Assembly (NCBI GenBank): GCA_934675095.1
Contig: CAKUPC010000042.1
Coordinates: 1-17,277, forward strand
Direction: 5' to 3'
Source: an uncultured Bacteroidales bacterium
GTDB taxonomy: Bacteria; Bacteroidota; Bacteroidia; Bacteroidales; UBA932
Length of the DNA: 17,277 nt
Position 1 is the stretch's first letter. Every line of letters starts with the position of its first letter. The translations under genes and the position numbers were made by a program. Positions 7 to 17,277 of the stretch are shown here, piece after piece. A model generated the notes under the pieces. It was not told where the DNA came from, did no database searches, and saw nothing but the letters and a program-made list of their open reading frames with translations.

Positions 7-37
7 CAAAGGTACGCCTTTTTTCTTTACCTGCAAA
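7..37 (-). promoter_or_regulatory. Consensus Bacteroidota promoter firing leftward out of the window
   Basis: On the minus strand there is TTTG at 37-34, exactly 19 bases, then TACCTTTG at 14-7. This matches the Bacteroides primary-sigma promoter consensus (TTTG at -33, TAnnTTTG at -7) in both boxes and in spacing. Transcription would start at about position 1 or just beyond the left edge, so it must serve a minus-strand gene outside the window. It lies downstream of the PUL terminator and therefore starts a separate transcription unit. Unlike the two internal promoters of this locus it has a proper -33 box, which suggests expression without an activator. Confidence 0.75.
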
Positions 38-1462: not shown

Positions 1463-1480
1463 ATCTTAATATATTATATG

Positions 1481-2251
1481 TTATTTGTCGTCGGCATGCT
1501 TGCCGAAGAAGAAAAGGCTGTGATAGTAGAAGTGCTCGTTGTAGCTTGAGTCGCCGCTATAGATGATGTGAATCACGCCGGTGTTCGTGTGAATGTCGGA
1601 GACCATCATCCTGTAGCTCTGGTCGCACTCGTCGTTGTCCGGGGTGAGGGTCGCGCGCTCAAGGTAGGTGAGTTCCCAGTTCGCGCCCCTCTTGAAGAGG
1701 ACATGAATGAGCTTCGGAGTGGTGAGCAGGAAGTTCGAGTACTGGAAGCCCGCGCCCGCCACATTACCGCCGTCGTAGGCCGAGCCGGGGTCGGTGTTGG
1801 TCTCGTCGAGGGTGAGGTGAATCTCCTGCGTCCCGTCGATGGAGGTGAGATAGACCCCATCCTCCGGGATGTCCTCTCGTCCCCACTTGCCGGGATAGAT
1901 GTACATTCCCATCTGCGCGAGGTCGGCAGCGGTCATGTCCTCAAGCCTGAACTCGGCCGCGCCCTCGACTCCGTTGCGGAAGCCATAGTTCTTGCGTCGG
2001 ATGTAGCGGTTCACGGAGTATTTCGACGGGCTGATGACGGTGACCTCCCCGTTGATGGCATCCTTCAGACCGGCCTTTTCGAAGAGCTGGGCCACAACCG
2101 TAGTGTTCTCGTCCTGAAGCAGATATTCGTAGGTCGTCATGTCGAACTTGTTCGTCTCGTTTATCGTGCCTCCGATGACGTCGGTGCGGCAGGAGGAGAG
2201 GAACGGAGCGGTGACGGCCGCAATAATCATATATTTAAGAAATCTTTTCAT
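1481..2251 (-). CDS. FAS1 (fasciclin)-like lipoprotein
   Basis: This 256-residue protein has a lipoprotein leader (MKRFLKYMII, then FLSSC, lipidated Cys at 21). The rest looks like one divergent fasciclin (FAS1) domain. Residues 39-70 (starting TTYEYLLQDENTTVVAQLFE) resemble the first helices, TVISPSKYSVNRY (71-83) resembles the conserved TVFAPTN segment, and HTNTGVIHII (221-230) resembles the closing NGVIHVID motif. FAS1 domains are known adhesion or binding modules. The gene starts 21 bases after the SusD stop and ends 18 bases before the DUF5007-like gene, so the three are co-transcribed. The inferred role is a cell-surface accessory that may contact the glycan or the SusCD complex. The long insert between the two motifs makes the fold call tentative. 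Confidence 0.78.
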   Translation of the reverse strand: MKRFLKYMIIAAVTAPFLSSCRTDVIGGTINETNKFDMTTYEYLLQDENTTVVAQLFEKAGLKDAINGEVTVISPSKYSVNRYIRRKNYGFRNGVEGAAEFRLEDMTAADLAQMGMYIYPGKWGREDIPEDGVYLTSIDGTQEIHLTLDETNTDPGSAYDGGNVAGAGFQYSNFLLTTPKLIHVLFKRGANWELTYLERATLTPDNDECDQSYRMMVSDIHTNTGVIHIIYSGDSSYNEHFYYHSLFFFGKHADDK

Positions 2252-2272
2252 ATTCCGATGCGTTTAGTTTGA

Positions 2273-3907
2273 TTACCATCTTGTCTTGCCGTCCCAGTAA
2301 GGAGTCTGGCTGATGAGAGGGTTCATCTTCATTATTGAAGAGGATACCGGCCAGTAGTAGCCTTCCTGCTTGTATTTCGCCGGAGCCATGAGGTGGTCGT
2401 TCGGGAAGTAGTTGTTGCGGACCATGTCGAAGTAGAGACAGCCCTCGCCGAAGAGTTCGGCAATTCTCTGCTGCATGATTTCGTCGGCGAGGCCCGAGTT
2501 GTCGCCCTTGTACTCGCCTATCTTCGCCCTCTCGCGGATGTCGTTCACGATGGCCGTGGCCTTGCCGTACTGCTTGTCGCGTGTGTATGCCTCGGCGAGA
2601 AGGAGCATGATGTCGGTGTAGCGGAACACGGGAATGTTGGCTTCGGCAAAATAGGCGACATATTCATCGACCTTCTTGTCCTTGTCAGCCGTGAACATCG
2701 CGTATTTCGTGAGCCATGTGACCTTCGTCCTGTCGTTCTCGGCTCCGCCGGTGTCGTTTACAGGCTCGTTGTACTCGGAATCCCATGCGTCGAAGAAGAG
2801 CTTAGGACGGATGTCGCCGGTCTGCGTCGTGAAGTCATATTCAGGATACATCTTCGCCTTCTGGCTCGCCGGCACCCAGTCAATCTGGGTCGAGCGGTCC
2901 TTCATAGGGTCGCCGTCGAACGACTCCATCTTGCAGGTGCGCGCGGTGACGCCGGCCATGTCGGCACGGTAGGACTCGTTGGAGTCGGTGGAGATGTTGA
3001 GCTCGAACACGGCCTCGGTGGAGCCGCCGCGGTACATTGCCTGAATGGACTTCATGTCAACGTACTGGACATACGAGCGGTTGGAGTGGTCGCGGAAATC
3101 CTCAAGGGCGGCGACCGCTGCCTTCACATAGTCGGAAGCGTTGACTCCGGGAACACGGTCCCTGCGCACGAGGAACCACATCCACATATTCACATGACCG
3201 CAGAGCGCGAGGGCGGCTCCCTTGTCGGCGGTGATGCCCCAGCCGTCTCCGCCCGGAACGTTGAATTTCAGAAGCTCGACCGCCTTGTTCACGTCGGCGA
3301 GGACGTTCTGGCAAATGTCGATGTCGTCGGTTCTCGGGATTACGACAGGAGAGAGGTCCTTGTCGATGACCTGACTTGAGGACTCAATCATCTCGCTGAT
3401 GTACGGGGCGTTGCCCCAGATGCGGAGGATGTTGAAATAGACGAGGGCGCGGAGGAAGTAGGCCTCCCCGAGGATGCGGTCCTTCTGCCCCTCCTTGAAC
3501 TGGGAATCCGGAATCTCGTCTATCTTGCGGATGACCATGTTGGCCTGGGCGACGACCTTGTAGAAGTTGCTCCAGTCGGAGTAGTCCTCAAGCGAGCCCC
3601 ACATCTTGCTCGGGTTGGCGATGTCGGTATAAATCCCGTTGGTGTAGAGATACTGGGACGAGCCGCCGTTCCACCCGGCGCGGATGAATCCCGTGGTCGC
3701 GTCGGCGCGGCTGTACCAGTTGTTTGAATTGGCCATCAGACCCCTGTAGAGGGCGTAGGTGCCGGAAAGTCCGACCTCGGCGTCCGTCTGGGTCTTCCAG
3801 AACACCTCGTTGTAGATGAGATCGACCTGCTCCGGATCGAGGAACTTCGAGCATCCGCAGGCGCAGGCGAGGGCCAGGCCCAGAATTGCTATATACTTTT
3901 TCATCAT
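2273..3907 (-). CDS. SusD/RagB-family surface glycan-binding lipoprotein
   Basis: This 544-residue lipoprotein is typical in length for SusD. The leader MMKKYIAILGLALACACGC ends in GCSKFLD, the usual SusD start, with lipidated Cys probably at 19. ILGEAYFLRALVYFNILRIW (145-164) is the classic TPR-like SusD helix, and FRYTDIMLLLAEAY (428-441) followed by a helix ending in VNDIRERA is the C-terminal RagB/SusD signature. The protein ends in YWPVSSSIMKMNP...W as is common. SusD sits as a lid on the SusC barrel at the cell surface and binds glycan. The gene follows SusC after 57 bases that hold a 20-bp AT palindrome. An AAGGA lies 4 bases before the first ATG and 7 before the second (3904), so either Met may be used. 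Confidence 0.96.
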   Translation of the reverse strand: MMKKYIAILGLALACACGCSKFLDPEQVDLIYNEVFWKTQTDAEVGLSGTYALYRGLMANSNNWYSRADATTGFIRAGWNGGSSQYLYTNGIYTDIANPSKMWGSLEDYSDWSNFYKVVAQANMVIRKIDEIPDSQFKEGQKDRILGEAYFLRALVYFNILRIWGNAPYISEMIESSSQVIDKDLSPVVIPRTDDIDICQNVLADVNKAVELLKFNVPGGDGWGITADKGAALALCGHVNMWMWFLVRRDRVPGVNASDYVKAAVAALEDFRDHSNRSYVQYVDMKSIQAMYRGGSTEAVFELNISTDSNESYRADMAGVTARTCKMESFDGDPMKDRSTQIDWVPASQKAKMYPEYDFTTQTGDIRPKLFFDAWDSEYNEPVNDTGGAENDRTKVTWLTKYAMFTADKDKKVDEYVAYFAEANIPVFRYTDIMLLLAEAYTRDKQYGKATAIVNDIRERAKIGEYKGDNSGLADEIMQQRIAELFGEGCLYFDMVRNNYFPNDHLMAPAKYKQEGYYWPVSSSIMKMNPLISQTPYWDGKTRW

Positions 3908-3916
3908 ATTGTCCTT

Positions 3917-3936
3917 ATTATATAATATTATATAAT
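3917..3936. repeat. Perfect 20-bp AT palindrome between susC and susD
   Basis: The sequence ATTATATAATATTATATAAT is its own reverse complement. It lies in the 57-base gap between the SusC stop and the SusD start, about 10 bases before the SusD start codon. In RNA it could fold into an A-U hairpin just ahead of the AAGGA. It may be a weak translational or processing signal, or simply AT-rich spacer. No function can be read from the sequence alone. Confidence 0.6.
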
Positions 3937-3964
3937 TGAGTAAGCGTTTCCCTTTCTGAAAATC

Positions 3965-6900
3965 TCAGAACTGCAGCTGTACGCCGAAGACTATCGTGCG
4001 GGAAATCGGGTAGCCGGAACCGTTGTAGAATCCGGTACGGGACACCAGACGGGGGTCGAGCACGGATGACTTCTTCCACATCGCGAGGTTCTGGCCCGTC
4101 ACATAGACGTTTATTCCCCTCATGCGGATCTTGTCGAGCCACTTGTGAGGCAGGTCGTAGGACAGGGTCACGTTGTCGAGGCTCCAGTAGTCGCCCGGCT
4201 CGATGAACATGGAGGACATACGGAACGAACGCGCTCCGCCGCCTTCCCAGTAGTTCACGTAAATCATCGGATAGTACGAGCCGTCGCCCGGAGCCTTCCA
4301 GAACTTGGAGTCGTCGAACTTGTAGAGCGCGTACTGGTAGAAGCTGGCAGCGTCGTCGAAGCGCGAGAGCTGCTGCTGGAGGGTGCTGTTCACGATGTAG
4401 TGGCCGAACGCGAAGGAGGTGTTCACCCTGAGGGAGAGTCCCTTCCAGCGGAGGGTGGTGTTGAGACCGCCGGTCACCTTCGGCTCCGGAGTCTTGCCCT
4501 CGATGATCTTCATGTCGTTCTCGCTCTCATATCCCTCGATGCGGTAGTCTCCGTTCACGTCGGTAAATACAGGCATACCCGGGAATATGCGTCCCTGAAG
4601 GTTACGCGCAAGGCCCGCGTCGGCCCCGTTGTACTTGAGTGCCTCGCCGGTGAACGGATCCACAGGAAGGTCGGAGTAGTAGTCGAGCGTGCCCTGATAC
4701 TCATACATATAGTACTGGAACGCAGGAGCGCCCTCGATGAAGGCGTAGTAGCCGCTGCGGTTGATGTAGTCGCGTCCGCCGTTTCCGAGCTTTGCAATCT
4801 TGGTGGAGTTGTTCGCGAGGTTGAGCGTCCAGTCCCACTGGAATGCGGATGTCCTCGGGAAGAGGTAGCCGGTGAGGGAGAGCTCGAATCCGTGGCTCAC
4901 CATATCGACGAGGTTCGACGAAAGCTTGTTGTAGCCGACGTATGACGGAAGCTGCGAGGTATAGACGAGGTCGGACATATACTTTGAATATATATCACCC
5001 GAGAAATACAGCCTGTGATTGAAGAGTTCGAGGTCCAGACCGTAGTTGATTTCCTTGGTGCGGCTCCACGAAAGATCCTTGTTGGCAATCTTGTCGAAGT
5101 CCGCGATGAGGGCAAGCTTGTCTCCGTAGGTCTTGATGTCCATCTTGTCGCTGTACATGTAGCCGAGACCGCCGGTAATCGAACCGAGGGACACGAGCGA
5201 GTTGTACTGGAGAAGAGGGTCGTAGTAAATCTCTCCGGACGTACCGAACGACACGCGGAACTTTCCGAAGTCCATCCATTTCTTCGTGGCCTTCATCCAT
5301 GGTTCCTCGGAGAATGCCCAGTGAGCCTTGACGGACGGGAAGTTAGCCCATTTGTTGTTGGCCCCGAACCTTGAAGAAGCATCGCGGCGAAAAACGCCCT
5401 CGACCTTGTATCGGTTGTTCCTGTAGCCGTATGAGGCCATGGCGAAGACCGAGAACATATTGGAGGTTACGATGTCAGAGTAGGCGAATGTATTTTCCTT
5501 TTTGTAGCCCTGGATGACCTTGAGGTAGTCGGACATTCCGTCCTCGGCCTCGGCGCGGAGCTGGTTCAGCGTGTTGGTGTTCACCTCAACTCCGAGGAGT
5601 CCCACGACTCCGTGCTCGCCCTCCTTTCCGAAAGCCTGGTTGTAGTTCAGGACGGAGTTTGCGTTGATTGTGGTGGTCACGCCGGCAGAGGAGTGCGCCA
5701 CGCTGCGGTGGTCGTCACGGGCGACGGCGGGGAGGAAGTAGTCGCGCTTTCCGTAGTCGAGAATCATGGACGCCTGGTTGTCCCAGCTCAGCCCCTCGAA
5801 GAACTTGACGCGAAGTGTCTCGCCGACGGAGATGGAGTGCGTCCTGTTCTTGTTGTAGGCGTCGCCGAGCTGGCCGCTCATCATGCGGAGCTCTTCGTCG
5901 GAACGGTAGAACAGGGACGACGGAAGTTCGGTCGGCGAGGTAGGCATGGCCTTCATGAGGTCGTTCAGACCGCCCTTACGGTCGAGGTAGGTGTAGCGCA
6001 TCACGAGTTCGTTGTGCAGGTGCTTGTTAAGGTCCGTCACGAGGCTGGTGTTGAGATTGGTTCTCTGCACGCCGTAGCCCACGAGCACGCCGGTCTCACG
6101 GTAGTGGCCGATGCTGACACGGTAGGAGTTGCTGTTGTTTCCTCCCTCCATCGAAAGGTCGTAGTTCTGGGTGGAACCGTTCTGATAGAACATCTCCTGA
6201 TAGTCGTAGGCGTTGTTGAACGCCGGGTTATATTTGTCCGTGAGCACCGCCGGAAGGGTGTGTCCCATAATCTCGACGGCTGCGGCGGGACGGATGTCGA
6301 ACCACTCCTGGTCGCCGAAGAGGTTGCTAAGGGTGGTCTCAATCATGCCAATCTTGGCCTCGCGCTCCTCGTTTCCGAGATAGACGGCAAGCTTGGACGG
6401 CTTGGTGATGACTCCGTAGCTGGCGCGGGCGGTGACGCGGGGTGCGCCGCTCGTACCCTTGCGGGTGGTGATGATGACGACGCCGTTCGCGCCGCGTGAA
6501 CCGTAAATCGCGGTCGCCGCCGCATCCTTGAGGATGTCGATTGACTGCACGTCCTGAGGGTTCAGGGTGGAGAGGAAGTCATTGTCGGTCACGTTGTAGC
6601 CCGCGAAGTCCTGAAGGGCCATCGGGATGCCGTCGATGATGTAGAGAGGGTTGCTGATACCCGTGATGTCGTTGGCTGACGAGAGGGAGTTGTTGCCTCG
6701 GATGACAATTCCGGAGCTTGCCGCACCCGGAACGCCGCTTCTGATGACGGTCTGGAGGCCGGCCGCCTGACCCGCGAGCATATTCACGAGGGAGACTGAC
6801 TGGGTGTTCTCGATTGCGTCCATGTCAATCTTCGCCACGGAAGCCGAAATGTCACGCAGGTTCTGCTTCGTGTAGCCGATGGAAACGGACTCGCTGAGCC

Positions 6901-7225
6901 TGAGGTTGTTGGCCTTGAGGACAACATTCATCTTTTCAGTTGCCGGAAGGCGCTCGTCGTCACAGCCGAGATAGGAGAACACGAGCATCGTACCCCTCGG
7001 GACCGTAATCGTGAACTCTCCGTCAACATCGGTCACGACTCCTCCCTTACGGTTGTTCTCCGCGTATGCGGCCGCACCGATGAGGGGTTCTCCGTCGTCA
7101 CCGGTTATGACTCCGGTAACCCTGATGAGATCTTTCTGCTGACCCGCAGCGGAGAAAGAACCCACGCACCCGAGGAATGCCGCGAGCAGCACGCAAAGGG
7201 CAGTTTTTAAGAGTTTCTTCACCAT
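3965..7225 (-). CDS. SusC/RagA-family TonB-dependent outer-membrane transporter
   Basis: This is the outer-membrane barrel that imports oligosaccharides with TonB energy, capped by SusD. From the start at 7225 it has 1086 residues: a signal peptide (MVKKLLKTALCVLLAAFLG...), a carboxypeptidase-D regulatory-like domain (about 34-106), a plug with SESVSIGYTKQ (about 111-121), PLYIIDG and AIYGSRGANGVVIITT (about 239-254), then the barrel to the terminal Phe of VFGVQLQF. There is no STN domain, so direct anti-sigma signalling is unlikely, in line with the hybrid regulator nearby. An in-frame ATG at 7273 would add 16 residues, but these use AT-rich codons (cta, tta, cga, aat) unlike the GC-rich gene and would precede the basic signal-peptide start, so 7225 is preferred. 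The GH127 gene ends 79 bases upstream with no promoter visible between. Confidence 0.96.
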   Translation of the reverse strand: MVKKLLKTALCVLLAAFLGCVGSFSAAGQQKDLIRVTGVITGDDGEPLIGAAAYAENNRKGGVVTDVDGEFTITVPRGTMLVFSYLGCDDERLPATEKMNVVLKANNLRLSESVSIGYTKQNLRDISASVAKIDMDAIENTQSVSLVNMLAGQAAGLQTVIRSGVPGAASSGIVIRGNNSLSSANDITGISNPLYIIDGIPMALQDFAGYNVTDNDFLSTLNPQDVQSIDILKDAAATAIYGSRGANGVVIITTRKGTSGAPRVTARASYGVITKPSKLAVYLGNEEREAKIGMIETTLSNLFGDQEWFDIRPAAAVEIMGHTLPAVLTDKYNPAFNNAYDYQEMFYQNGSTQNYDLSMEGGNNSNSYRVSIGHYRETGVLVGYGVQRTNLNTSLVTDLNKHLHNELVMRYTYLDRKGGLNDLMKAMPTSPTELPSSLFYRSDEELRMMSGQLGDAYNKNRTHSISVGETLRVKFFEGLSWDNQASMILDYGKRDYFLPAVARDDHRSVAHSSAGVTTTINANSVLNYNQAFGKEGEHGVVGLLGVEVNTNTLNQLRAEAEDGMSDYLKVIQGYKKENTFAYSDIVTSNMFSVFAMASYGYRNNRYKVEGVFRRDASSRFGANNKWANFPSVKAHWAFSEEPWMKATKKWMDFGKFRVSFGTSGEIYYDPLLQYNSLVSLGSITGGLGYMYSDKMDIKTYGDKLALIADFDKIANKDLSWSRTKEINYGLDLELFNHRLYFSGDIYSKYMSDLVYTSQLPSYVGYNKLSSNLVDMVSHGFELSLTGYLFPRTSAFQWDWTLNLANNSTKIAKLGNGGRDYINRSGYYAFIEGAPAFQYYMYEYQGTLDYYSDLPVDPFTGEALKYNGADAGLARNLQGRIFPGMPVFTDVNGDYRIEGYESENDMKIIEGKTPEPKVTGGLNTTLRWKGLSLRVNTSFAFGHYIVNSTLQQQLSRFDDAASFYQYALYKFDDSKFWKAPGDGSYYPMIYVNYWEGGGARSFRMSSMFIEPGDYWSLDNVTLSYDLPHKWLDKIRMRGINVYVTGQNLAMWKKSSVLDPRLVSRTGFYNGSGYPISRTIVFGVQLQF

Positions 7226-7276
7226 AATTCGATTGGTTAACAGTGATTTATAATTATTGGTTGATAGTTTCATGTC

Positions 7277-7304: not shown

Positions 7305-9308
7305 TCATTTTCGGAATATCACAGGGAATTCGGAAATCCTGAGCGTCGTGCATCCGTAAGGGATGAGGCGGACGGTTTCCACATTCTTGTCTCGGATGAC
7401 AGGGTTTCCGTACATGCGGCTGTATGGAATCGGGCCGGCCATGCCGTTGTAGAGCGTCCAATAAGGGATGCGCTTCGCCTTGGCGGTGATGACTATCGGG
7501 GCGGACTCCAGGTTCCAATACCAGTCGGTGTCGAGCTTGCGCTCATCGACGGTTACCTCGAATGCCTCGGCGGGGTCGTCGAAATCCACGAGTCCGTAGT
7601 TCCAAGGGGATTTCGGATGAACCTCCCAATAGAACTCGCCGCGCACAGGGTCGGACGAATTGTCCTTCTTCACCCATTCTTCCTGAATCTCAAGGGCATA
7701 CACGAGAGGGCCGCGTTCCACGGAAATGGCGTTCTCGTACCATGAGTCCGTCGTGACCTTCATCGGGAAGGAAAGTTCGACGATGTCGCCGTCGGCCCAT
7801 TCGCGGTTGATGACCGTGACGCTGCCCGGAGCCGAAGCCTCGACTGGGCTGCCGTTCACCGTCACGGAGGCGTTCTCCGTCCATGACGGGATGCGCAGGT
7901 GGAGCGGGAAGGAGGCGGAGCCGTGAAGCGAGACGAGCAGCTTGATGTTCCCTTCCATAGGGTAGCGGGTGCGCTCCTCGATGGTCACCTCCTGTCCGCC
8001 GGCCATAGCCGTGACGCGGCAAGGCGAGTATGCGAGGGCGGCAAGGCCGCCGTCAGGGGTGGCGTACCAGAGGTTCTGGACGAACTTCGGCCATCCCTGA
8101 TGGAAGTTGGAGGTGCAGCAAGGGTAGCCCGAGAGAAGGCCATAGACAAGGTCGGACTCGCCGTGGGTGATGTCGAAATTGTGGATGCAGTGGCTCACGT
8201 TCACCTGATTGGCCTGCTGGAAGTACTGCCGGGCCATGAAGTCGTCGGTGAGCTGGGTCGGAAGCGCGTTGAACGCCACCCTTTCAAGATGCTCGACGAA
8301 CGAGAGGTCGCCGGTAATCTTAGCCATCTCCTCAAGCGAGAACATCAGCTCGACCGCCGAGCAGAGTTCCGAGCCCTGGGTCGGGTTGTTGCCGTGTAGG
8401 AGTTCGTCGCCGCCGTACATCCCGGACGGAACGCCGTTGTACTTGCGGATGTCGGCGAAGGCGGTGCGGACGGCGTCGAGGTATTTCTGCTGCGGGTCGC
8501 ACTGCCACCAGACGACAGGCTCCTTTATTCCCTGCGCGAGATTGACGCAGTGGATGGTGCTGAAGCGGGAGAGTTCGTCGGTTTCGAGGAACATGTGCAC
8601 ATAGTCGTGGCTCTGAGCGTGGAGAATCGCGGCAAGGTCGAGCAGCCACTCCTCGCCGGTGAGGCGGTAGAGCCAGATGACTGAGGAGAGGTTGTCGCAG
8701 GCGCGGTAGGTCGCCCATGAGGTCCAGTTGCCGAGAGGGCAGGTCGGAAGGGTGTTGAGCTGGTAGCGGAAATAGTTGCGCATGAAGTCAATCACGCGGG
8801 AGTCACCGGTCGCCGACCAGTACTGCTGCATGAACTTGAGGACGACCATTCTCGGCCACCAGTCATGCGAGTTGTCGCGCTGGAGCCCGCGCTCGTAGGG
8901 ATAGTCCGTGTCGGGTCCGAAGAAGCCGTCCTCCTTCTGGCTTGCAAGCGCCCATTCCACCCACGGCTGCGCCTTCTGCTTGAGGGCATCGTCGTCGAGA
9001 ATCCATGCCATCGGGATGAGCCCGTCAATCCAGTACGGTCCCCTCTCCCACTGGTCGCCGTCGCCGCCGAGCCAGCCGTTGCGCGGCCCCATCACTTCAG
9101 GATAGAGGCTGTCCATCTGCGACGTCATTCCGTTCCGCTGCCTCAGAAGGGTCTCGCGGAGCCAGCCTTCAGGCTTTATGGAGCCGAGACGGAGTTCGCT
9201 GTAGGCGAGCGGCTGAACCTTTTCGGACTTGGGCTGTCCGCATGAAGACATGATAGTCAATGAAGCCATCAGGGTGAATGTTATTAAAAGTGTGCGTTTG
9301 GCAGACAT
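7305..9308 (-). CDS. GH127/DUF1680-family glycoside hydrolase (beta-L-arabinofuranosidase type)
   Basis: This 667-residue lipoprotein (leader MSAKRTLLIT..., lipidated Cys at 23 in MSSC) is a DUF1680/GH127-type enzyme. An (alpha/alpha)6 barrel covers about 35-425, followed by beta-sandwiches that include the family-typical SVERGPLVYALE (529-540). In Bifidobacterium HypBA1, zinc is held by Glu338, Cys340, Cys417 and Cys418, Cys417 being the nucleophile. The matching residues here are Glu314 and Cys316 (GSELCS) and Cys397-Cys398 (GYPCCTS), so the unusual Zn-cysteine active site is intact. The acid/base is probably Glu302 (GGDELL), though the spacing to Glu314 is 12 against 16 in HypBA1. Known family members remove beta-L-arabinofuranose, and some act on other sugars of RG-II, so the substrate is open. 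The gene has its own promoter-like region upstream and leads into susC. Confidence 0.93.
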   Translation of the reverse strand: MSAKRTLLITFTLMASLTIMSSCGQPKSEKVQPLAYSELRLGSIKPEGWLRETLLRQRNGMTSQMDSLYPEVMGPRNGWLGGDGDQWERGPYWIDGLIPMAWILDDDALKQKAQPWVEWALASQKEDGFFGPDTDYPYERGLQRDNSHDWWPRMVVLKFMQQYWSATGDSRVIDFMRNYFRYQLNTLPTCPLGNWTSWATYRACDNLSSVIWLYRLTGEEWLLDLAAILHAQSHDYVHMFLETDELSRFSTIHCVNLAQGIKEPVVWWQCDPQQKYLDAVRTAFADIRKYNGVPSGMYGGDELLHGNNPTQGSELCSAVELMFSLEEMAKITGDLSFVEHLERVAFNALPTQLTDDFMARQYFQQANQVNVSHCIHNFDITHGESDLVYGLLSGYPCCTSNFHQGWPKFVQNLWYATPDGGLAALAYSPCRVTAMAGGQEVTIEERTRYPMEGNIKLLVSLHGSASFPLHLRIPSWTENASVTVNGSPVEASAPGSVTVINREWADGDIVELSFPMKVTTDSWYENAISVERGPLVYALEIQEEWVKKDNSSDPVRGEFYWEVHPKSPWNYGLVDFDDPAEAFEVTVDERKLDTDWYWNLESAPIVITAKAKRIPYWTLYNGMAGPIPYSRMYGNPVIRDKNVETVRLIPYGCTTLRISEFPVIFRK

Positions 9309-9334: not shown

Positions 9335-9400
9335 CAAAGGAAGCGTCCGTCAGTCACATACGACTCACATTATCGTTTCAAAAAATCATATTTTTGTCTC
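9335..9400 (-). promoter_or_regulatory. Predicted activator-dependent promoter and operator of the GH127-SusCD operon
   Basis: In the 121-base gap before the GH127 gene, the minus strand carries TTCCTTTG (9342-9335), one mismatch from the TAnnTTTG -7 consensus. No TTTG is found at the -33 spacing. Further upstream are two similar half-sites in direct orientation with starts 21 bp apart: GAGACAAAAATATGA (9400-9386) and GAAACGATAATGTGA (9379-9365), identical at 11 of 15 positions. The extended element TTTTGAAACGA (9383-9373) lies 32 bp before CCTTTG. Nearly the same arrangement precedes the lipoprotein gene at 14392. A perfect GTCTC-T-GAGAC dyad (9396-9406) overlaps the distal half-site. Binding by the hybrid regulator is inferred. 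Confidence 0.55.
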
Positions 9401-9429
9401 TGAGACATGATTTCTTCAGTTTGTGCGGC

Positions 9430-12400
9430 CTATTTTGAGGTCACGAGGCTTATTTTCTTCTCGCAGTATGGGGTTTCGCCGTCGGAAGGGAAAGCGACAT
9501 TCAGTTCGAGAATGCCGTCCTCGAAAGACACGGCCTCCTCCGAAACGCTGTCGTAGCCTCCGGGAACATGAATCCGGAGACGATGCTCCGAGCCCGGGCG
9601 GCCTGAGACCGTCACGATGAGCTTGCCGTCGGAGAAGCTCTGGTCAATCAGACGGAATCCCGAGGACTGCCCTCCGCGCTGTGCGGGGACATAAATCGGA
9701 AGTGCCCCGGCTCCGCCGCGGGTGCTGAACTCCACGGTCGTCTCCTCTTCCGAAAGCCTGAACTGAAGGACAGGAACCGTGTAGGCGGAAGAGCTGTCGA
9801 GGCCGAACCTGACCTTCTTCCCGTTCACCTTCACGCAGGTGATTTCGGCGCCAGGGGCGAATGCCGGAGAGAAAGTGCATTTGAGGCCGTCGCCGCCGCT
9901 GAGTTTCCAGAGAGTACGGTCAGTCGTGCGCTGCATCTCAATGGAAATACGGTCATCGCGCACGCGCAGTCCTCCGGCCTTGAAGCTGTCCCAGTCAAGA
10001 GGCAGACGCGGGGCGAGGCTGACGCTGCGGGAGTGCGCATCGGCGCTGAAGCCGAGAGTGCCCTCTATGAACGGCATTATGGTCATGGTCTCGGACCAGC
10101 ACTGGTGCTGGGTGATTCCGTTGTTGCGGTAGGAGTCGGCGTTGATGACCTCGGCTATGTGACCCGAGCTGAACGACCTGTAGGTCATGAGGCTGCCGTA
10201 GAGGGAGGCGAAGCCCTGGTCGAAGTAGCCCTCGCTGTACTCCGCGAGCGACTTCCATCCCGTGAAGAGCGGCCAGACATTGCGCGGATGGTAGGCGCCG
10301 CCTCCGGTCGCGTCGGAGGTCTCGAAGATTGTACGCGAGCCCCAGTCGGTCGAGAGGAGCGGCCCGACATAGTTGCGGGACATGGTCCGGGAGCGCTCCG
10401 GGTCGAGCACCCCGAGGAAGGTCGGCACGGCGGTGAGCACAAGGAATTCGTCCTGATAGCTTCCGTCGGCGTTCATCGCGTAGTTGTACCAGCCCTTGTC
10501 CGCATTCCAGAACTTCTCAAGCGGTTCATTAACCGAGCGGGAGGCGCGGCGGTAGCTCAGAGCGGCGGCATCGTGGCCGGTCGCGGACGAGAGGTAGGCA
10601 GCGTCGTCGAGAGCCGCCTTCCAGAGACCCGCGAGATAGAACTCGGTGCGGAATCCCCAGAGGTTTCCGCCGCCCTCAAGCCAGCCGTGGCCGACATTGC
10701 TGTTCTCTATGAGAGAGTCGCCGTCGCGGTCGGTGGAGAAGCAGTAGTCCATAGCCAGTTTCATCGCTCCGTAGCGCTCCTTTATGAAAGGAAGGTCGCC
10801 GGAGAGGCGGAGATACTCGGCCATGAGGCGGACGAGAAGAGGGGTGGAGTCGGCGCCGTCGTAGTGGGTTATGCCGCTCGTGGTGAGTTCATGATAGATT
10901 TTCCCGTCCGGAGACTGATACTTTATGAGAAGGTCTATGCAGTCGCGGACGGTATTGAAGTCGCCCATGTCGAGGAACGCGAACGCCGCCCATTCCGAGT
11001 CGCGCCCGAAGTACCAGGCATATCCGGGACGGCCGCTGACCCTGTGGTTTCCTCCCCAGCCCCTGCGTGAAGACGAGAATCCCGCAAAGAGCGCCGTGCC
11101 GAGCCCGGGTGTTTCACTGATGAACTGCGCGGAGCTTATCTGCGCCCAGCGGAAAGCGTCGTTGAAGGCGCTGTCGGGGGTCTCGACGTTCACGACGGAG
11201 GCGAGCCAGTCTGAATAGTGGCCGCGGGAAGCCTCAACGACGGCGGAGGGGTTCTCCATGACACAGCGATATGCATTCACGGCATCGTCCTCTCCGGTGC
11301 TCGCCGCTGCGAGTACAAAGTCCAGTGCCTCAAGACCTTCGGTGTCGTAGGAAACAACGGAACCCACCTGCAGGAGGGATGTCGGAATGCCCTGAATCCG
11401 GCCGCCGTCATAGCTGAAGTCCGAGAACTGTCCCGAAAGCACGGGATGTCCGGGAACATTGGCTCCGACTATGGAGATGTGTTTCTTAGCGGCGTCGCGC
11501 ACCACCGTGGCGTTCAGTTCCGGCGACCAGCTGTAGAGAAGCGAGCCGAGAACCCTCTCGTCGTATGGCCACATCATGCGCAGGTTCGACTTGAAGTCGT
11601 TGTAAATCCTCTGCGGAGCGGCGCCGTCCCATTCGTAATGAACGGTCGTGACGGCATATTCCGGAGACGAGGACACGATTTCGCGGAGTTTCATTCCGTC
11701 AATTTCATATATTCTCACGACTGCGTGGGGATGCACCTCAACAGTCGGGACGAGCGAGTTCAGGCAGACCGGAGCCTTTGCGCCACGGGGTTCGACCCAC
11801 ACGCGCCAATCCCTCACGGACATGACCGGCTGGAACCATATTTCCTCGATTCCTCCCCTTTCCGGAAGGATTGCCATGGAGTGAGGGGATATGACGTCGG
11901 TATATTCCCCCGTGGCCTCACGGACAATCGACATTCCCATGTCCGGAAAATCAACCTTTCGCGGAGAGGGCGGCATGACCGGGTCATATTCCGCCGCACA
12001 GATGCGGCAGCTGCCGTCGTGATGTCCGTGCAGGCGGATGACCTCCGGCTTCTCGTTCTCCCAGAAGTTTGCCTCAATTTCCTGCGGGGCGCGGCCGGTC
12101 ATGTAGCGGACGCAGGAGCGGGTGAAGGCGTCGAGTATGGCGCGGTCGTGGTTCGGCCGGTCAAAGTAGAGGCAGCCCCCGATTGCTAAAATAGAGCCCT
12201 TGCCCACGGGAGTCTCCCAAATGAGCTTCAGGTCCGGACGGAGGAAGACATATTCCCACTGGCAGGCGATGACCTTCGCTCCCTCGGCGGACGGGAATTC
12301 ATTGCCGCGGAAGCCGTTGAGCCGGCATACATTGTCCTCGGTCCCGTGCCATGTGTAGGCTCCTCCGTGAATGCTTTCGTCGAAGAGAGGATGGCTGAAA

Positions 12401-12810
12401 CGGGAATGGAAGCCTATCTTGCGGCCGAATCCCTCGTCGGTGCAATCATATTTCCAGCTTCCTATTTCCGAAGGCTCTACGCCCCAGACATTAAGCAGGC
12501 GCACCGCGTCCATGGAGAGGACAAGCCTTCCGCCGTCCTCGACATATTCCCGAAGCCCGTTCTCCCACGCCCCGGCCTGCCCGGCGGAGAAGGCGGTGTC
12601 GGTGGAATGGAGCCAGACCATGTCGCAGCCGGCGGCCTTTTCCGGGGTTATGCGCACCGTACACGCGGCGTCGCCGACGGCCTCCGTGAGACCGCCGGCT
12701 TCCGCATCGCTGATGATTGTTCCGAGCTTTGTGTTGTCGCCGCAGCGGGCTGTCATGAGCAGCGTCACCGCAACGGCAAGAGCATATTTGTACATATCAG
12801 AGTTTGTCAT
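9430..12810 (-). CDS. Large secreted GDE-like (alpha/alpha)6-barrel glycosidase with an N-terminal ThuA/glutamine-amidotransferase-like domain
   Basis: This 1126-residue protein has three visible parts. Residues about 28-240 look like a ThuA or class-I glutamine-amidotransferase-like alpha/beta domain (MVWLHST, YVEDGGRLVLSMD, GKGSILAIGGCLYFDRPNHD). The middle (about 540-925) is an (alpha/alpha)6 barrel like glycogen-debranching C-terminal and related glycosidase domains, with YFGRDSEW (600-607), HYDGADSTPLLV (649-660), GHGWLEGG (707-714), YHPRNVWPLFTGW (840-852) and QCWSETMTIMPFIEG (903-917). Asp604, Glu606, Glu712 and Glu908 are candidate catalytic residues. A beta-rich tail follows. The leader MYKYALAVAVTLLMTARC ends in Ala-Arg-Cys, a poor lipobox because Arg is at -1, so lipidation is doubtful. 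The start at 12810 is supported by GGAGG 7 bases upstream, although the Met at residue 6 gives a tidier leader. The gene is co-transcribed with the 508-residue lipoprotein (55-base gap). The substrate is unknown. Confidence 0.83.
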   Translation of the reverse strand: MTNSDMYKYALAVAVTLLMTARCGDNTKLGTIISDAEAGGLTEAVGDAACTVRITPEKAAGCDMVWLHSTDTAFSAGQAGAWENGLREYVEDGGRLVLSMDAVRLLNVWGVEPSEIGSWKYDCTDEGFGRKIGFHSRFSHPLFDESIHGGAYTWHGTEDNVCRLNGFRGNEFPSAEGAKVIACQWEYVFLRPDLKLIWETPVGKGSILAIGGCLYFDRPNHDRAILDAFTRSCVRYMTGRAPQEIEANFWENEKPEVIRLHGHHDGSCRICAAEYDPVMPPSPRKVDFPDMGMSIVREATGEYTDVISPHSMAILPERGGIEEIWFQPVMSVRDWRVWVEPRGAKAPVCLNSLVPTVEVHPHAVVRIYEIDGMKLREIVSSSPEYAVTTVHYEWDGAAPQRIYNDFKSNLRMMWPYDERVLGSLLYSWSPELNATVVRDAAKKHISIVGANVPGHPVLSGQFSDFSYDGGRIQGIPTSLLQVGSVVSYDTEGLEALDFVLAAASTGEDDAVNAYRCVMENPSAVVEASRGHYSDWLASVVNVETPDSAFNDAFRWAQISSAQFISETPGLGTALFAGFSSSRRGWGGNHRVSGRPGYAWYFGRDSEWAAFAFLDMGDFNTVRDCIDLLIKYQSPDGKIYHELTTSGITHYDGADSTPLLVRLMAEYLRLSGDLPFIKERYGAMKLAMDYCFSTDRDGDSLIENSNVGHGWLEGGGNLWGFRTEFYLAGLWKAALDDAAYLSSATGHDAAALSYRRASRSVNEPLEKFWNADKGWYNYAMNADGSYQDEFLVLTAVPTFLGVLDPERSRTMSRNYVGPLLSTDWGSRTIFETSDATGGGAYHPRNVWPLFTGWKSLAEYSEGYFDQGFASLYGSLMTYRSFSSGHIAEVINADSYRNNGITQHQCWSETMTIMPFIEGTLGFSADAHSRSVSLAPRLPLDWDSFKAGGLRVRDDRISIEMQRTTDRTLWKLSGGDGLKCTFSPAFAPGAEITCVKVNGKKVRFGLDSSSAYTVPVLQFRLSEEETTVEFSTRGGAGALPIYVPAQRGGQSSGFRLIDQSFSDGKLIVTVSGRPGSEHRLRIHVPGGYDSVSEEAVSFEDGILELNVAFPSDGETPYCEKKISLVTSK

Positions 12811-12817
12811 TTTTCAG

Positions 12818-12822
12818 CCTCC
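12818..12822 (-). promoter_or_regulatory. Shine-Dalgarno GGAGG for the GDE-like gene
   Basis: GGAGG on the minus strand ends 7 bases before the ATG at 12810. Strong Shine-Dalgarno sequences are not the rule in Bacteroidota, so this one helps choose the first of two in-frame Met codons (12810 rather than 12795). It also fits translation from a shared mRNA, since no promoter element is seen in the 55-base gap. Confidence 0.6.
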
Positions 12823-12865
12823 ACGGGCTTTCTGTCAAGACTTGGAACCTGTTTCAGCAAGTTTC

Positions 12866-14392
12866 TTATTCCTCGTAGTTGTCGCGGAGCTCGCGCTCGT
12901 ACTTCTTGGCGGCGTTCCAGTCCACGACATAATACCACCAGTTGTTCAGATGGAGGTCATTCACATCCTCGTTGATGCCCTTGAAGTGAGGCATATGAGA
13001 GAAGAAGTACATCATCCAGCCCTGCTGGCCGTTCTTCCACTCGGAACTGTTCACGCGGCGAGGGTTCGCCATGACCATCTTAGGATAGTCGAACCAGCAG
13101 TCGGCGTAGGTATAGACATAGTCGGTGCGGTTGTCGTAGTCATAGTCGTAGCGTCCGTTAGGCGGGAAGTGGGTGCAGCCGATCTGGGCGTGCCCCTTCT
13201 CGTAGCGGTCGTATTCGAGGTTGTGGCAGGCGTAGCGTTCCCAGTTGTTCAGTTCGGCCTCACGGGCAGGAAGGTTGTTCTCGGCACGGTTGCGCCATGA
13301 GCCATAGACCTGCTTCATTATGGACTCGAAACGGTGGCCGTAGCTGTGGAGGGCGAGGTCGGTGGTGCGCTCGTAATTGCAGAACATCACGGTCACGAGG
13401 TCCTTGCAGGGCGCTCCGACGGAGATTCCCGGAGAGTTGCACCAGAACGCGCCGTCGCCTATGAGGCGGGACTCGTACATTCCGCTGCCCGGGTGGTTAT
13501 AGACCCAGACCTCCTGTATCTCGCCGGCGTCGCGCATCTTGTCGAAGCCGTAGTACTTGAGCATACCGACATAGTCGTACTCCACGCCGGAGCCGATTCC
13601 GGGGCACTCGTGTCCATTGGCATAAATCACGTCACGGAAATACTCGATGGAGAAATATTCCTTCTCGCTGCCGGTCTTGGTGTTGTCGTAGCTGAAGAGC
13701 CTCTCGGCACGGACTTCCTTCACGACCTCGTACTGAATCACGCCGTGGGAAGCCTCCTCAAGGTCGGCCTCGAACTTCTTGGCCTGCTGGACAGGGTCGT
13801 TCCACCTGTAGCCGTTGCCGCCTACGGTGCAGACCTCGTGCATATACTTGTCCGTGCCCGGCATTATCGGGTCTTCGTAGAGAATGGCGACCTTAACCGT
13901 GATAGGGTCGGCGATTCTCTGCTCGTAAGGCTCCTCCGGTCCGGCAGGAAGGCGCTTCACGGTGAGCGAGCGGACCTGCTTTTCAAACTTGTCCTCCCTG
14001 CCCTGCGCGATGACGCTCCACCAGATTGTCGCGGTCTCCTCATTCTTCACGCCGAGAGCCTCAAGGAAGCCGTCGAATGCCTTGTATTTGTAGGAAACAG
14101 GATTCGACATGGCGCGGACATCGTAGGGCTTGGAAAGGTCCTCGGAACGGCTGAAACGAATCTTGTAGCTATTGACATCCTTCGCGTTCTCCCATGAGAA
14201 CACGACATCCTCGGCATTGAGCAGGTCAATCGAGACTCCGTTTTCCGGAGCGGTGAGCACAATCGGTTCGAGTTCAACTGGCTGTTCCGGTTCAGGCTCG
14301 GCGGCAGGCGCCTTTTCGCAGGCGACGGAAACGAACATCGAGCAGGCGAGGGCGATGACCGAGGTCATGCAGAATCTTAGATTTCTTTTCAT
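12866..14392 (-). CDS. Lipoprotein with SusE-like N-terminal domain and unrecognised C-terminal domain
   Basis: This 508-residue protein has a lipoprotein leader (MKRNLRFCMT..., SVAC with lipidated Cys at 25) and an acidic, Pro/Glu-rich linker (26-42). Residues about 43-147 form a SusE/Fn3-like beta-sandwich (PIVLTAPENG, VVFSWENAKDVNSYKIRFS, IWWSVIAQG). I do not recognise the remaining 340 residues. They contain several striking motifs: ILYEDPIMPGT, IQEVWVYNHPGSGMYES, CNYERTTDLALHSYGHRFES (338-357) and CTHFPPNGRYDYDYDN (406-421), plus many Trp, Tyr and Cys. H349-x3-H353-x2-E356 could bind a metal, and the domain may be enzymatic, but it is not the HExxH of known peptidases. The gene leads the first predicted operon just after the regulator gene and its operator-like site. 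It may be a surface hydrolase or glycan-binding protein. Confidence 0.85.
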   Translation of the reverse strand: MKRNLRFCMTSVIALACSMFVSVACEKAPAAEPEPEQPVELEPIVLTAPENGVSIDLLNAEDVVFSWENAKDVNSYKIRFSRSEDLSKPYDVRAMSNPVSYKYKAFDGFLEALGVKNEETATIWWSVIAQGREDKFEKQVRSLTVKRLPAGPEEPYEQRIADPITVKVAILYEDPIMPGTDKYMHEVCTVGGNGYRWNDPVQQAKKFEADLEEASHGVIQYEVVKEVRAERLFSYDNTKTGSEKEYFSIEYFRDVIYANGHECPGIGSGVEYDYVGMLKYYGFDKMRDAGEIQEVWVYNHPGSGMYESRLIGDGAFWCNSPGISVGAPCKDLVTVMFCNYERTTDLALHSYGHRFESIMKQVYGSWRNRAENNLPAREAELNNWERYACHNLEYDRYEKGHAQIGCTHFPPNGRYDYDYDNRTDYVYTYADCWFDYPKMVMANPRRVNSSEWKNGQQGWMMYFFSHMPHFKGINEDVNDLHLNNWWYYVVDWNAAKKYERELRDNYEE

Positions 14393-14439
14393 ATCGGTTT
14401 TATGTGTTTGTTTTTATGTGTTAATTTTTTTGTCGGAGG

Positions 14440-14504
14440 CAAAGGTATCGAGGATATGTCCCCTGCATTATAGTTTTCGTCTCAAAAAAAGATAAAATCG
14501 TATT
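14440..14504 (-). promoter_or_regulatory. Predicted activator-dependent promoter and operator of the lipoprotein/GDE-like operon
   Basis: Between the regulator stop and the lipoprotein start, the minus strand has TACCTTTG (14447-14440), a perfect -7 box, but no TTTG at the -33 spacing. TTTTGAGACGA (14487-14477) lies 31 bp before CCTTTG, matching TTTTGAAACGA at 32 bp before CCTTTG in front of the GH127 gene. A weaker AATACGA starts exactly 21 bp upstream of GAGACGA, the same offset as the half-site pair at the other promoter. Transcription would start near 14433, giving a leader of about 40 bases. Activation by the adjacent regulator is inferred. Confidence 0.55.
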
Positions 14505-14506
14505 TT

Positions 14507-17277
14507 CTACTTGAAATCCTTCGGGAGGACGCCGAAATGCTTGTAGAAACATTTGGAGAAATAGGACGAGGAACTGAAGCCGACGATGTAGGCAATCTCG
14601 TTAACGCGGTATTCCTTCTGGCGCAGCAGTTCGGCGGCTTTCTTGAGGCGTATCGTGCGGATGAAGTCGTTCGGGGTCACGCGAAGCACCTCCGAGGTCT
14701 TGCGGTAGAGCGTCGCTCGGGACATATTCATCATCGAGGCAAGCTTGTTGATGTCCAGATCGACGTCCTCGATGTGGCTTTCGATCATCTCTATGAGCAT
14801 ATTCATGAACCCGTCGTCGGCCTTGGTGAACACGAGGCTGTCGGAACTCTCGTCGGCGGTGAACTTGGAGGCCTCGGAGATGTAGTTGGCCTTGAGGAGG
14901 TTGGATATGCAGGCGAGAAGGTACTCGTAATAGAACGGCTTATCGACAATCTGGTCGGCTCCGCAGGCGTATGCGTCGGACTTGGAAGCCGGCGCGGCGG
15001 TCTCGCTCGACAGGAGGATGACCGGGATGTGGCGGAAGCGCAGGTCGGACTTTATGCGCGTGCAGAGGGTGCGGCCGTCCATGTCGGGAATGACGATGTC
15101 CGAGATGATCATGTTCACGCTCCGCTTTTCGAGCAGGTCCCAGGCCTGGTTGCCGTTGGTGGCGCGGATGACGCGGAACTTGGATTCGAGCAGGCGGGAG
15201 ATGTAGTCAAGGAACTCCACGTCGTCATCGACCATCAGAATCACCTTCTTGTCCACGTCGAGAGGGCTGTCCTCCCGCGAGGAGCGTGTCTCCACCTCTA
15301 TCTCGCGCTCGCGGCTCCGGTCAAGCTTGAAGCTTCCGGCCTGGATAATCGGCATCCGGAGCTCGAAGCAGGTGAGCCTTTCGGAGTTTTCGTAGAAGCG
15401 GACGGAGCCTCCGTGCAGCTCGACCAGCATCCTCACGAGGGAAAGCCCCACCCCGAAGCCGTCGGAGCTCTTCTCCACCTTGAAGAACGGGGTGAAAATC
15501 TCGTCGGCAAGTTCGGGCGGAATCCTGTCCCCGTCGTTGGCCACGGTCAGCAGGAAATCCTTCGCGTTGTCGTCGGCAATAAGTTCCACGATTATCCGGG
15601 TCCTGGCGTGCTTGAGGGCGTTGTTCAGAAGGTTGCTCGTCATCTTTACGAACATCTCGACATCCACGTCGCCGAGGAAGCCCTCCGGGACATGAGGGTC
15701 GATGGTTATGCCCTTTATCTTTGCGGAAGGGGCGAAGCGTGAAATCACGCTGCCGGTAATCCGGGAGAGATCCGAACGGACAAAGACAGGGTCGTGGTTC
15801 TGCGAACTGACCTTGCGGAAGTCGAGCAGTTGGTTCACGAGGTTCAGCAGGCGGTCGGTGTTGTCGCGGATTGTCAGCAGGTTGCGGTACTCCGGAGAGT
15901 TCGTGCGGGTCTTTTCGATGATTTCGTTAAGCGGAAGCTTTATCAGGCTCAGCGGAGTGCGGATTTCGTGTGTTATGTTCGAGAAGAAGCCGAGCTTGGC
16001 CTCGTATATCTCCCTGTCCTTTTCCTCGTTTATCCTTGCCTGACGACGCTCCTCCGCGGCACGCATCCTCTGCCGGACGAGCCACACGGCAAGCGCGACC
16101 AGTCCCGAAAAGACAAGCAGATAGATCATCCATGCCCAGCCCGAGCGCCAGAACGGAGGACGGATGACAATACGGAGCGTAATCAGGTCCTCCGCGCCGT
16201 CGTCGCCGCTCTCGCGCACGTGCAGACGGTAGCTTCCGTAGGGAAGGTTGGAGTAGGTGATTCGGTCCGGAAGGCTGAGCGGCATCCACATACGGTCGTA
16301 GTCGTCGAGACGGTACCACCATGTGCGGTTCATGGACGGGGAGTAGTTGATTTCGGTGACTCCGAGGCTGAAGGTGGAGATTGACGGCGGGATGACGAGT
16401 TCCTTCGTGTCGGTTATGGACTTTTCCAGCAGGGGCAGTTCGGGGTCATCCACCCGGACCTCGCGGTTGTTCACATAGAGGGAGTTCAGCAGAAGGCTTC
16501 CTCGCGAGAAGGACATGGGGCGGTCTTCGGGGCTGAAGGACACGAAGCCGGAGATTCCTCCGAAATAGAGCCGGCCGTTCGAGTCCATGTAGCCGGACTT
16601 GAAGTTGAACTGGTCGCAGAGCAGACCGTTGTCCTTGGTGTAGCAGGTGACGGCAAGGGACTCAGGCTCGATGCGGAACAGACCCTTGTCGGTGCTGCCC
16701 CACAAGGCTCCGCCGCGGTCGGTCACCATGCTGTAGATCACGTCGTTGAGCAGACCGCTCCGGGAGTCGAACTTCTTCACGAAGCTGTCCGTGTCCCGCT
16801 CGTAGGCAAAGACCCCGTCGCCGTCGGTTCCCGCCCATACCCTGCCGGAGCGGTCGAGAGTGAGGCAGGTTGCCTTGAGAATGGAAGCGCTGCCTGAGGC
16901 GGAGTGTCCGTAGCCGGTCCAGCGGTCGGCATCGCGGTCGTAGGACCAGAGCCCGCCCCCGATGGTGGCGAACCAGAGAGTGCCGCGCCAGTCTTCCTTT
17001 ATGTCATTGACCTGACTTATGATGTGCTCGCGGTTGACGCTCACGAAGCGGTCCGAGGCGGGGTCGTGGCGGACAAGTCCGGCGTAGGTGCCGACCCAGA
17101 GCGTGCCGTAGGAGTCGCGAAAAACTGAATAGATGTCGTTGCTCGGGAGCTGGCCTGCCTGACCGCCTGCCCTGTAGTGCTTTCTGGAGCCGGTGCGCAG
17201 GTTCAGAAGATAGAGCCCTTCGGAGAAGGTGCCGACCCAGAGGCTTTCACCGTCGGAGAGCAGCGCATGGACATTGG
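14507..17277 (-). CDS. Hybrid two-component system sensor/regulator (HTCS), N-terminus outside the window
   Basis: The reading frame is open to the right edge, so the visible 922 residues (numbered from 17275) are the C-terminal part of a protein usually near 1300-1400 residues. In order: about six Reg_prop propeller repeats (LWVGTFSEGLY, LWVGTYAGLV, LWFATIGGGLW and others), a Y_Y_Y domain (about 299-370), a membrane segment (about 378-400), a coiled linker, HisKA with phospho-accepting His436 in FFSNITHEIRTPLSLI, HATPase (NLLNNALKHA, GFGVGLSLVRML), a receiver with DDD (683-685), Asp726 in SDIVIPDMDG and Lys779 in DKPF, and an AraC-type DNA-binding domain at the C-terminus. Known HTCS proteins sense an oligosaccharide in the periplasm and activate the PUL next to them. 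In the ATPase G1 region NDGDRIP replaces the usual DGxGI, with Arg in place of the second Gly. The GTG at 17044 is internal and is not the start. Confidence 0.96.
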   Translation of the reverse strand, partial: NVHALLSDGESLWVGTFSEGLYLLNLRTGSRKHYRAGGQAGQLPSNDIYSVFRDSYGTLWVGTYAGLVRHDPASDRFVSVNREHIISQVNDIKEDWRGTLWFATIGGGLWSYDRDADRWTGYGHSASGSASILKATCLTLDRSGRVWAGTDGDGVFAYERDTDSFVKKFDSRSGLLNDVIYSMVTDRGGALWGSTDKGLFRIEPESLAVTCYTKDNGLLCDQFNFKSGYMDSNGRLYFGGISGFVSFSPEDRPMSFSRGSLLLNSLYVNNREVRVDDPELPLLEKSITDTKELVIPPSISTFSLGVTEINYSPSMNRTWWYRLDDYDRMWMPLSLPDRITYSNLPYGSYRLHVRESGDDGAEDLITLRIVIRPPFWRSGWAWMIYLLVFSGLVALAVWLVRQRMRAAEERRQARINEEKDREIYEAKLGFFSNITHEIRTPLSLIKLPLNEIIEKTRTNSPEYRNLLTIRDNTDRLLNLVNQLLDFRKVSSQNHDPVFVRSDLSRITGSVISRFAPSAKIKGITIDPHVPEGFLGDVDVEMFVKMTSNLLNNALKHARTRIIVELIADDNAKDFLLTVANDGDRIPPELADEIFTPFFKVEKSSDGFGVGLSLVRMLVELHGGSVRFYENSERLTCFELRMPIIQAGSFKLDRSREREIEVETRSSREDSPLDVDKKVILMVDDDVEFLDYISRLLESKFRVIRATNGNQAWDLLEKRSVNMIISDIVIPDMDGRTLCTRIKSDLRFRHIPVILLSSETAAPASKSDAYACGADQIVDKPFYYEYLLACISNLLKANYISEASKFTADESSDSLVFTKADDGFMNMLIEMIESHIEDVDLDINKLASMMNMSRATLYRKTSEVLRVTPNDFIRTIRLKKAAELLRQKEYRVNEIAYIVGFSSSSYFSKCFYKHFGVLPKDFK

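Follow-up and report, generated by a model that had tools for sequence, protein, structure and literature searches.

Two promoters of one PUL share an element at a nearly fixed distance from their -7 boxes, and both copies are, very probably, operators of the HTCS encoded in the same stretch of DNA (14507-17275). This reading draws on the sequence, on conservation, on co-variation with the regulator's DNA-binding domain and on the promoter register, from which we infer binding, phosphorylation, activation and the transcription starts. The shared element and its near-constant spacing had been pointed out in a preliminary description of the sequence, and that observation is correct. A broader proposal, which we judge to be rather probable, is that HTCS promoters of Bacteroidales follow a single rigid architecture whatever the half-site, with a repeat of exactly 21 bp and the proximal half-site 30-41 bp before the TTTG of the -7 box, where it replaces the -33 box.

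The gene cluster and the shared element

The window, that is, the whole stretch of 17,277 bp analysed here, corresponds to a PUL on the minus strand which, according to open reading frames and Pfam matches, extends from the HTCS through SusD to two further genes (Table 1). Pfam assigns to the HTCS a periplasmic propeller/Y_Y_Y sensor, a histidine kinase, a receiver and an AraC-type HTH within one polypeptide, the N-terminus of which lies beyond the window. The α3-β4 loop of its receiver (window 15023-15034, minus strand) reads RHIP. In 84% of Bacteroides HTCSs S or C precedes HIP (PMC11253607), and departures of the RHIP type may change how the HTCS DNA-binding domain is kept inactive. The Rfam scan of the window gave no match, the generic terminator scan of the window was not above shuffles, and no matches were obtained in the plasmid (near mode, 5,501 bases) and viral collections.

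Table 1. Coordinates of the PUL genes and of the predicted promoter elements in the window.
Feature	Position	Strand	Basis and remarks
HTCS regulator	14507-17275	-	Pfam: Reg_prop, Y_Y_Y, HisKA, HATPase_c, Response_reg, HTH_18; 5' end beyond window
Promoter A upstream half-site, AATACGA	14498-14504	-	21 bp before next half-site; aligned with relatives; weaker of the pair
Promoter A downstream half-site, GAGACGA	14477-14483	-	33 bp before TTTG; pattern, alignment, matrix
Promoter A -7 box, TACCTTTG	14440-14447	-	exact TAnnTTTG
SusE-domain lipoprotein, 508 aa	12866-14392	-	ORF and Pfam; first gene past promoter A
GH116/GDE_C-like enzyme, 1126 aa	9430-12810	-	ORF and Pfam
Promoter B upstream half-site, GAGACAA	9394-9400	-	alignment with relatives
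Promoter B downstream half-site, GAAACGA	9373-9379	-	34 bp before TTTG; pattern, alignment, matrix
Promoter B -7 box, TTCCTTTG	9335-9342	-	one mismatch to TAnnTTTG
GH127 (beta-L-arabinofuranosidase family)	7305-9308	-	ORF and Pfam; first gene past promoter B
SusC, SusD and two further genes (256 and 394 aa)	278-7273	-	ORF and Pfam; downstream part of the PUL

The elements lie where the preliminary description had placed them, TTTTGAGACGA at 14487-14477 and TTTTGAAACGA at 9383-9373 of the minus strand, and the distances to CCTTTG given there, 31 bp at promoter A and 32 bp at promoter B, are also right. Counted from the end of ACGA to TTTG itself, the spacing is 33 bp at promoter A (14440-14504) and 34 bp at promoter B (9335-9400). 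TTTTGARACGA occurs exactly twice in the 17,277 bp, and allowing two mismatches adds only 10782-10792, which carries both of them. The gapped pattern TTTTGARACGA-N27..37-CCTTTG matches twice in the window and in none of 200 dinucleotide shuffles. The duplication described earlier is likewise present: at promoter B the half-sites at 9400 and 9379 are 21 bp apart and identical at 11/15 positions, and at promoter A a weaker upstream partner at 14504 (AATACGA vs GAGACGA) stands at the same 21 bp.

The definition of the element as TTTTGARACGA held for its positions; its extent had to be revised. We aligned nine sites, the two of the window and seven from relatives chosen by pattern search or by eye, in which the conserved unit is TGAnACRA and the T-run is only partly kept, so that TTTTGARACGA corresponds to the second, downstream copy in a direct repeat of TGAnACRA with a 21-bp period. 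The mean self-match of the nine sites is 8.9/15 at lag 21 and at most 6.0 at every other lag from 12 to 35, a comparison that is partly circular because the sites of G1070, L056, L057 and G003 were recognised with a 21-bp repeat in mind. TTTG follows 33 or 34 bp downstream in eight of the nine. Promoter A, promoter B and the aligned relatives all show the form expected of an HTCS operator, direct repeats whose sites have about 21 bp between them.

As had been stated, neither promoter A nor promoter B has the -33 TTTG of a Bacteroidota housekeeping promoter. The leftward promoter reported at window 7-37 does have it, with a perfect TTTG-N19-TACCTTTG on the minus strand and the -33 TTTG at 37-34. 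This last promoter, which directs leftward out of the window directly past the PUL, looks like an activator-independent one.

A scoring matrix was built from four sites of relatives (L001, L002, the first of L059, and L074), containing no window sequence and no TTTG. Over 34,384 window positions it ranked promoter A first (23.6 bits) and promoter B second (19.4 bits), the next position reaching 10.7 bits. In 20 control regions of G1047 (796,600 positions), two positions attain the score of promoter B, neither with TTTG at 33/34 bp.

Conservation in relatives and co-variation with the DNA-binding domain

The GH116 enzyme has protein relatives that are 90-54% identical (P0001-P0010); in sets of 398, 393, 13 and 301 genomes, partly overlapping and searched with chosen E limits, GH116 relatives reached at most 49% identity. 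A SusC search of the 13 genomes returned G001 alone, at 72%, and one genome contig scan gave six loci. The refuting conditions of the preliminary description that were examined mostly turned out in favour of its interpretation. Conservation at orthologous promoters, proposed earlier as a check, was observed in part: the syntenic PUL L001 has the element at its orthologous promoter, L002 and L074 have it at their susC promoters, and none was found in G1047. L001, from Bacteroidales UBA5326, has a complete PUL with unchanged gene order, except that an additional gene separates GH116 from GH127; identities to the window are 46% for the HTCS, 50% for the lipoprotein, 47% for GH116, 64% for GH127, 72% for SusC and 69% for SusD. 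The sequence between the HTCS and the lipoprotein of L001 is GATACAATATTTTCATTTTTTGAAACGAAAATCATAG, where TTTG follows 34 bp past ACGA; this is the same element in the same place as promoter A, although the -7 box, CTTATTTG, is without TA. In G002 the element is found upstream of a susC-like gene (L002 position 541), and a 42% identical HTCS is encoded farther on (L076). In G1070 the element has an HTCS (42% identity) on one side and a susC-like gene on the other (L074 position 9513), N33 from TATGTTTG.

In P. abscessus (G003, L059; HTCS 44% identical) the repeat stands upstream of susC, the start of the gene being about 600 bp further. This repeat has TACTTTCG in place of TAnnTTTG, which counts against the operator reading. 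A second site in this genome adjoins the HTCS gene and has weak half-sites with N33 to TATTTTTG (L059). In G1047 (HTCS 39% identical overall, 46% in the DNA-binding domain) the two loci scanned show no recognisable site, which also counts against. The element accompanies an orthologous HTCS at L001, L002 and L074, and at L059 without a good -7 box. L056 and L057 present 21-bp repeats and N33 beside a sensor-AraC protein. These regulators of about 905 aa (L056 11321-14050, L057 7428-10145), found in PULs related to that of the window, match its HTCS only in the sensor and the AraC-type HTH (query residues 1-378 and 823-922), the kinase part being unmatched. The SusC proteins of L002 and L005 are distant (25-30%) despite similar enzymes, while those of the window and L001 are 72% identical; SusC and enzymes appear, from these identities, to recombine between the PULs of the window, L001, L002 and L005.

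The HTCSs of the four element-bearing genomes are 42-46% identical overall and 64-72% in the DNA-binding domain. Over the approximately 110 C-terminal residues, identity to the window's domain is 72% for L001, 72% for L059, 67% for L074 and 64% for L076, and the recognition helices of these four HTCSs are near-identical to that of the window. The corresponding domain of G1047 is 46% identical, and those of the remaining 35 loci (the 31 HTCS loci described below plus L056, L057, L137 and L139; best local match per locus) are at most 45% identical. The element is conserved where the HTCS DNA-binding domain is conserved.

Searching the genomes of relatives for the element at its spacing, another check suggested in the preliminary description, gave few matches at about the right spacing; those of G001 and G002 each include the PUL promoter, and those of G003 and G795 fall elsewhere. 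TTTTGANACRA-N31..35-TTTG matches eight times in six genomes (G001 2, G002 1, G003 1, within a gene, G795 4, G304 and G391 0), vs two for the reversed control. The matches away from PUL promoters (one in G001, one in G003, four in G795) count against the operator reading. The strict pattern TGAnACRA-N13-TGAnACRA-N33/34-TTTG, searched in 393 genomes, gave seven matches in six genomes vs one for the reversed control, and TAnn precedes TTTG in 6/7 although the pattern did not require it. Two of the seven adjoin an HTCS (L137, L139), two are upstream of a gene (L135, L140) and three are neither (L136, L138, L141), locations that make the TGAnACRA half-site sequence alone an unreliable regulon finder.

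Promoter B and the number of transcription units

By mechanical ORF starts, the gap ahead of GH127 measures 121 bp vs 18-57 bp at the other junctions past promoter A; genes may in fact begin further inside these ORFs, and some of the gaps would then be wider. A second transcription start at promoter B is likely on this evidence. It is also possible, if doubtful, that promoter A alone is a genuine HTCS operator, promoter B being a decayed or weak copy that is bound without starting transcription, and the PUL one operon. The imperfect -7 box of promoter B and its lower score would fit such a copy, as would the lack of a counterpart in L001, L002, L005, L056 and L057, the five relatives in which the GH116 junction was read and where a gene lies close behind GH116 in each case. 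Against this, promoter B scores 19.4 bits when the next window position has 10.7, keeps the 21-bp repeat, has its TTTG at 34 bp and lies in the 121-bp gap. As no promoter occurs at the GH116 junction of those five relatives, the earlier prediction of two transcription units relies on the sequence of this single lineage.

A common register at other HTCS loci

G1047 and G1070 contain 33 HTCS matches; leaving out the two related PULs gave 31 regions (L077-L107) for the analysis. These provided 100 TAnnTTTG promoter candidates (84 from G1047 and 16 from G1070) spread over 86 regions and 30 loci, candidates that share a region being non-independent, and a motif-blind self-similarity was computed for every lag and distance. 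Over lags 12-40 and the offsets tried, the maximum falls at lag 21 and positions 30-41 ahead of TTTG, and 0/200 shuffled sets reach it. At this lag and these positions, which were taken from the same data, the self-similarity is 0.382 vs 0.288 in shuffles (z 7.3, 0/1000). When the loci were randomly split in halves, lag 21 was chosen in 20/20 splits and offset 30 in 16/20, and the value of the held-out half was reached by 0/100 shuffles in 18 splits and by 2/100 in the other two. The downstream half-sites of the window, GAGACGA and GAAACGA, occupy positions 34-40 and 35-41 upstream of TTTG, within this register.

As a control we used 51 candidates in 45 regions, obtained from 17 of 20 evenly scattered stretches of G1047 alone. 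At lag 21 and the same positions their self-similarity is 0.288 vs 0.292, a value reached by 596/1000 shuffles. Strong self-matches (at least 8/12) at lag 21 occur in 17/100 candidates of the HTCS loci and 3/51 controls, and at other lags from 14 to 30 the HTCS loci give 0-7; most candidates are without a strong repeat, as would be the case if many TAnnTTTG do not belong to HTCS promoters. The repeat as a general feature of promoters was considered and rejected, the controls having no lag-21 signal and a maximum at lag 19 that stays within shuffles (26/200). A -33 TTTG at 18-20 bp spacing is present in 0/19 candidates with strong repeats, 7/81 other HTCS-locus candidates and 4/51 controls; this trend agrees with a takeover of the -33 role, the difference being too small to prove anything by itself. 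The HTCS promoters of L077-L107 also display a weaker lag-21 excess at positions 58-61, a possible sign that some of them have a third half-site in tandem.

The direct-repeat, AraC-type geometry claimed in the preliminary description is supported by the published form of HTCS operators and by a -7 register common to unrelated HTCS promoters. That the elements bind a different regulator, either another AraC-family protein or a global one of the Cur/BT4338 type, is improbable: genomes of such bacteria do encode other AraC-type regulators, and the similar elements of L056 and L057 adjoin a sensor-AraC protein that matches the HTCS query in sensor and HTH only, but the conservation of the element tracks the DNA-binding domain of the PUL's HTCS and its geometry matches HTCS loci, not control promoters. 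A chance likeness of T-rich promoter DNA, to which the low complexity of the T-run half of TTTTGARACGA might lend itself, is hardly credible given that 0/200 shuffles contain the pair and that an independent matrix puts both sites far above the rest of the window.

Proposed mechanism and comparison with known systems

With both elements taken as operators of the window's own HTCS, the regulator would sense a glycan in the periplasm and then phosphorylate its own receiver domain. Two AraC-type DNA-binding domains would be placed side by side on the TGAnACRA half-sites, 21 bp or two helical turns apart, the downstream half-site falling 30-41 bp before the -7 TTTG and immediately upstream of the slot that a -33 TTTG would fill. 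Since the downstream half-site adjoins the -33 slot, the bound HTCS would recruit RNA polymerase to promoters that have no -33 box. Promoter A would drive the lipoprotein-GH116 part, and promoter B would represent an added start for GH127-susC-susD, probably over read-through from A.

HTCSs are among the main types of glycan-sensing switch found in gut Bacteroidales. Here conservation links the operator to its regulator and to the promoter register, and unrelated HTCS loci show a geometric signal that is independent of any motif. Should the register prove general, the targets of unstudied HTCSs could be predicted from sequence, and under the rigid architecture proposed above HTCS regulons could be predicted from geometry alone.

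Class II activation in the AraC family employs half-sites arranged as tandem direct repeats, of which the proximal one lies against the -35 slot. The window likewise has tandem repeats, but the slot is that of the -33 box in a -7/-33 promoter read by a Bacteroidota sigma factor, and the activator domain is attached to a sensor kinase in the membrane.

Among the 36 HTCSs of B. thetaiotaomicron, 20 had no predicted operator and 16 had one, the predicted operators all being direct repeats with an average of 21 bp between sites (Ravcheev et al., 2013; PMC3878776). Because this 21-bp direct repeat is the published form of the HTCS motif, the element of the window belongs to an already known operator type (PMC3878776). 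Like those operators, it lies upstream of putative PUL operons, several of which one regulator would serve; it belongs to another lineage and HTCS, and its half-site is TGAnACRA. The parts of Ravcheev et al. consulted state no distance to the -7 box (PMC3878776), and no fixed distance between HTCS repeat and -7 box was found in the literature searched, mostly without subscription papers, so that it may be in print. In PMC5061871, predicted sites are drawn together with -7 boxes in a supplementary figure. For BT4124 and BT4663, binding of the response-regulator domains to susCD promoters is phosphorylation-dependent by EMSA (PMC11253607). The arabinan HTCS BT0366 shifts two promoter fragments of its own PUL by EMSA (PMC5061871), in agreement with the proposed situation in the window, where one regulator would serve two promoters of its own, different, PUL.
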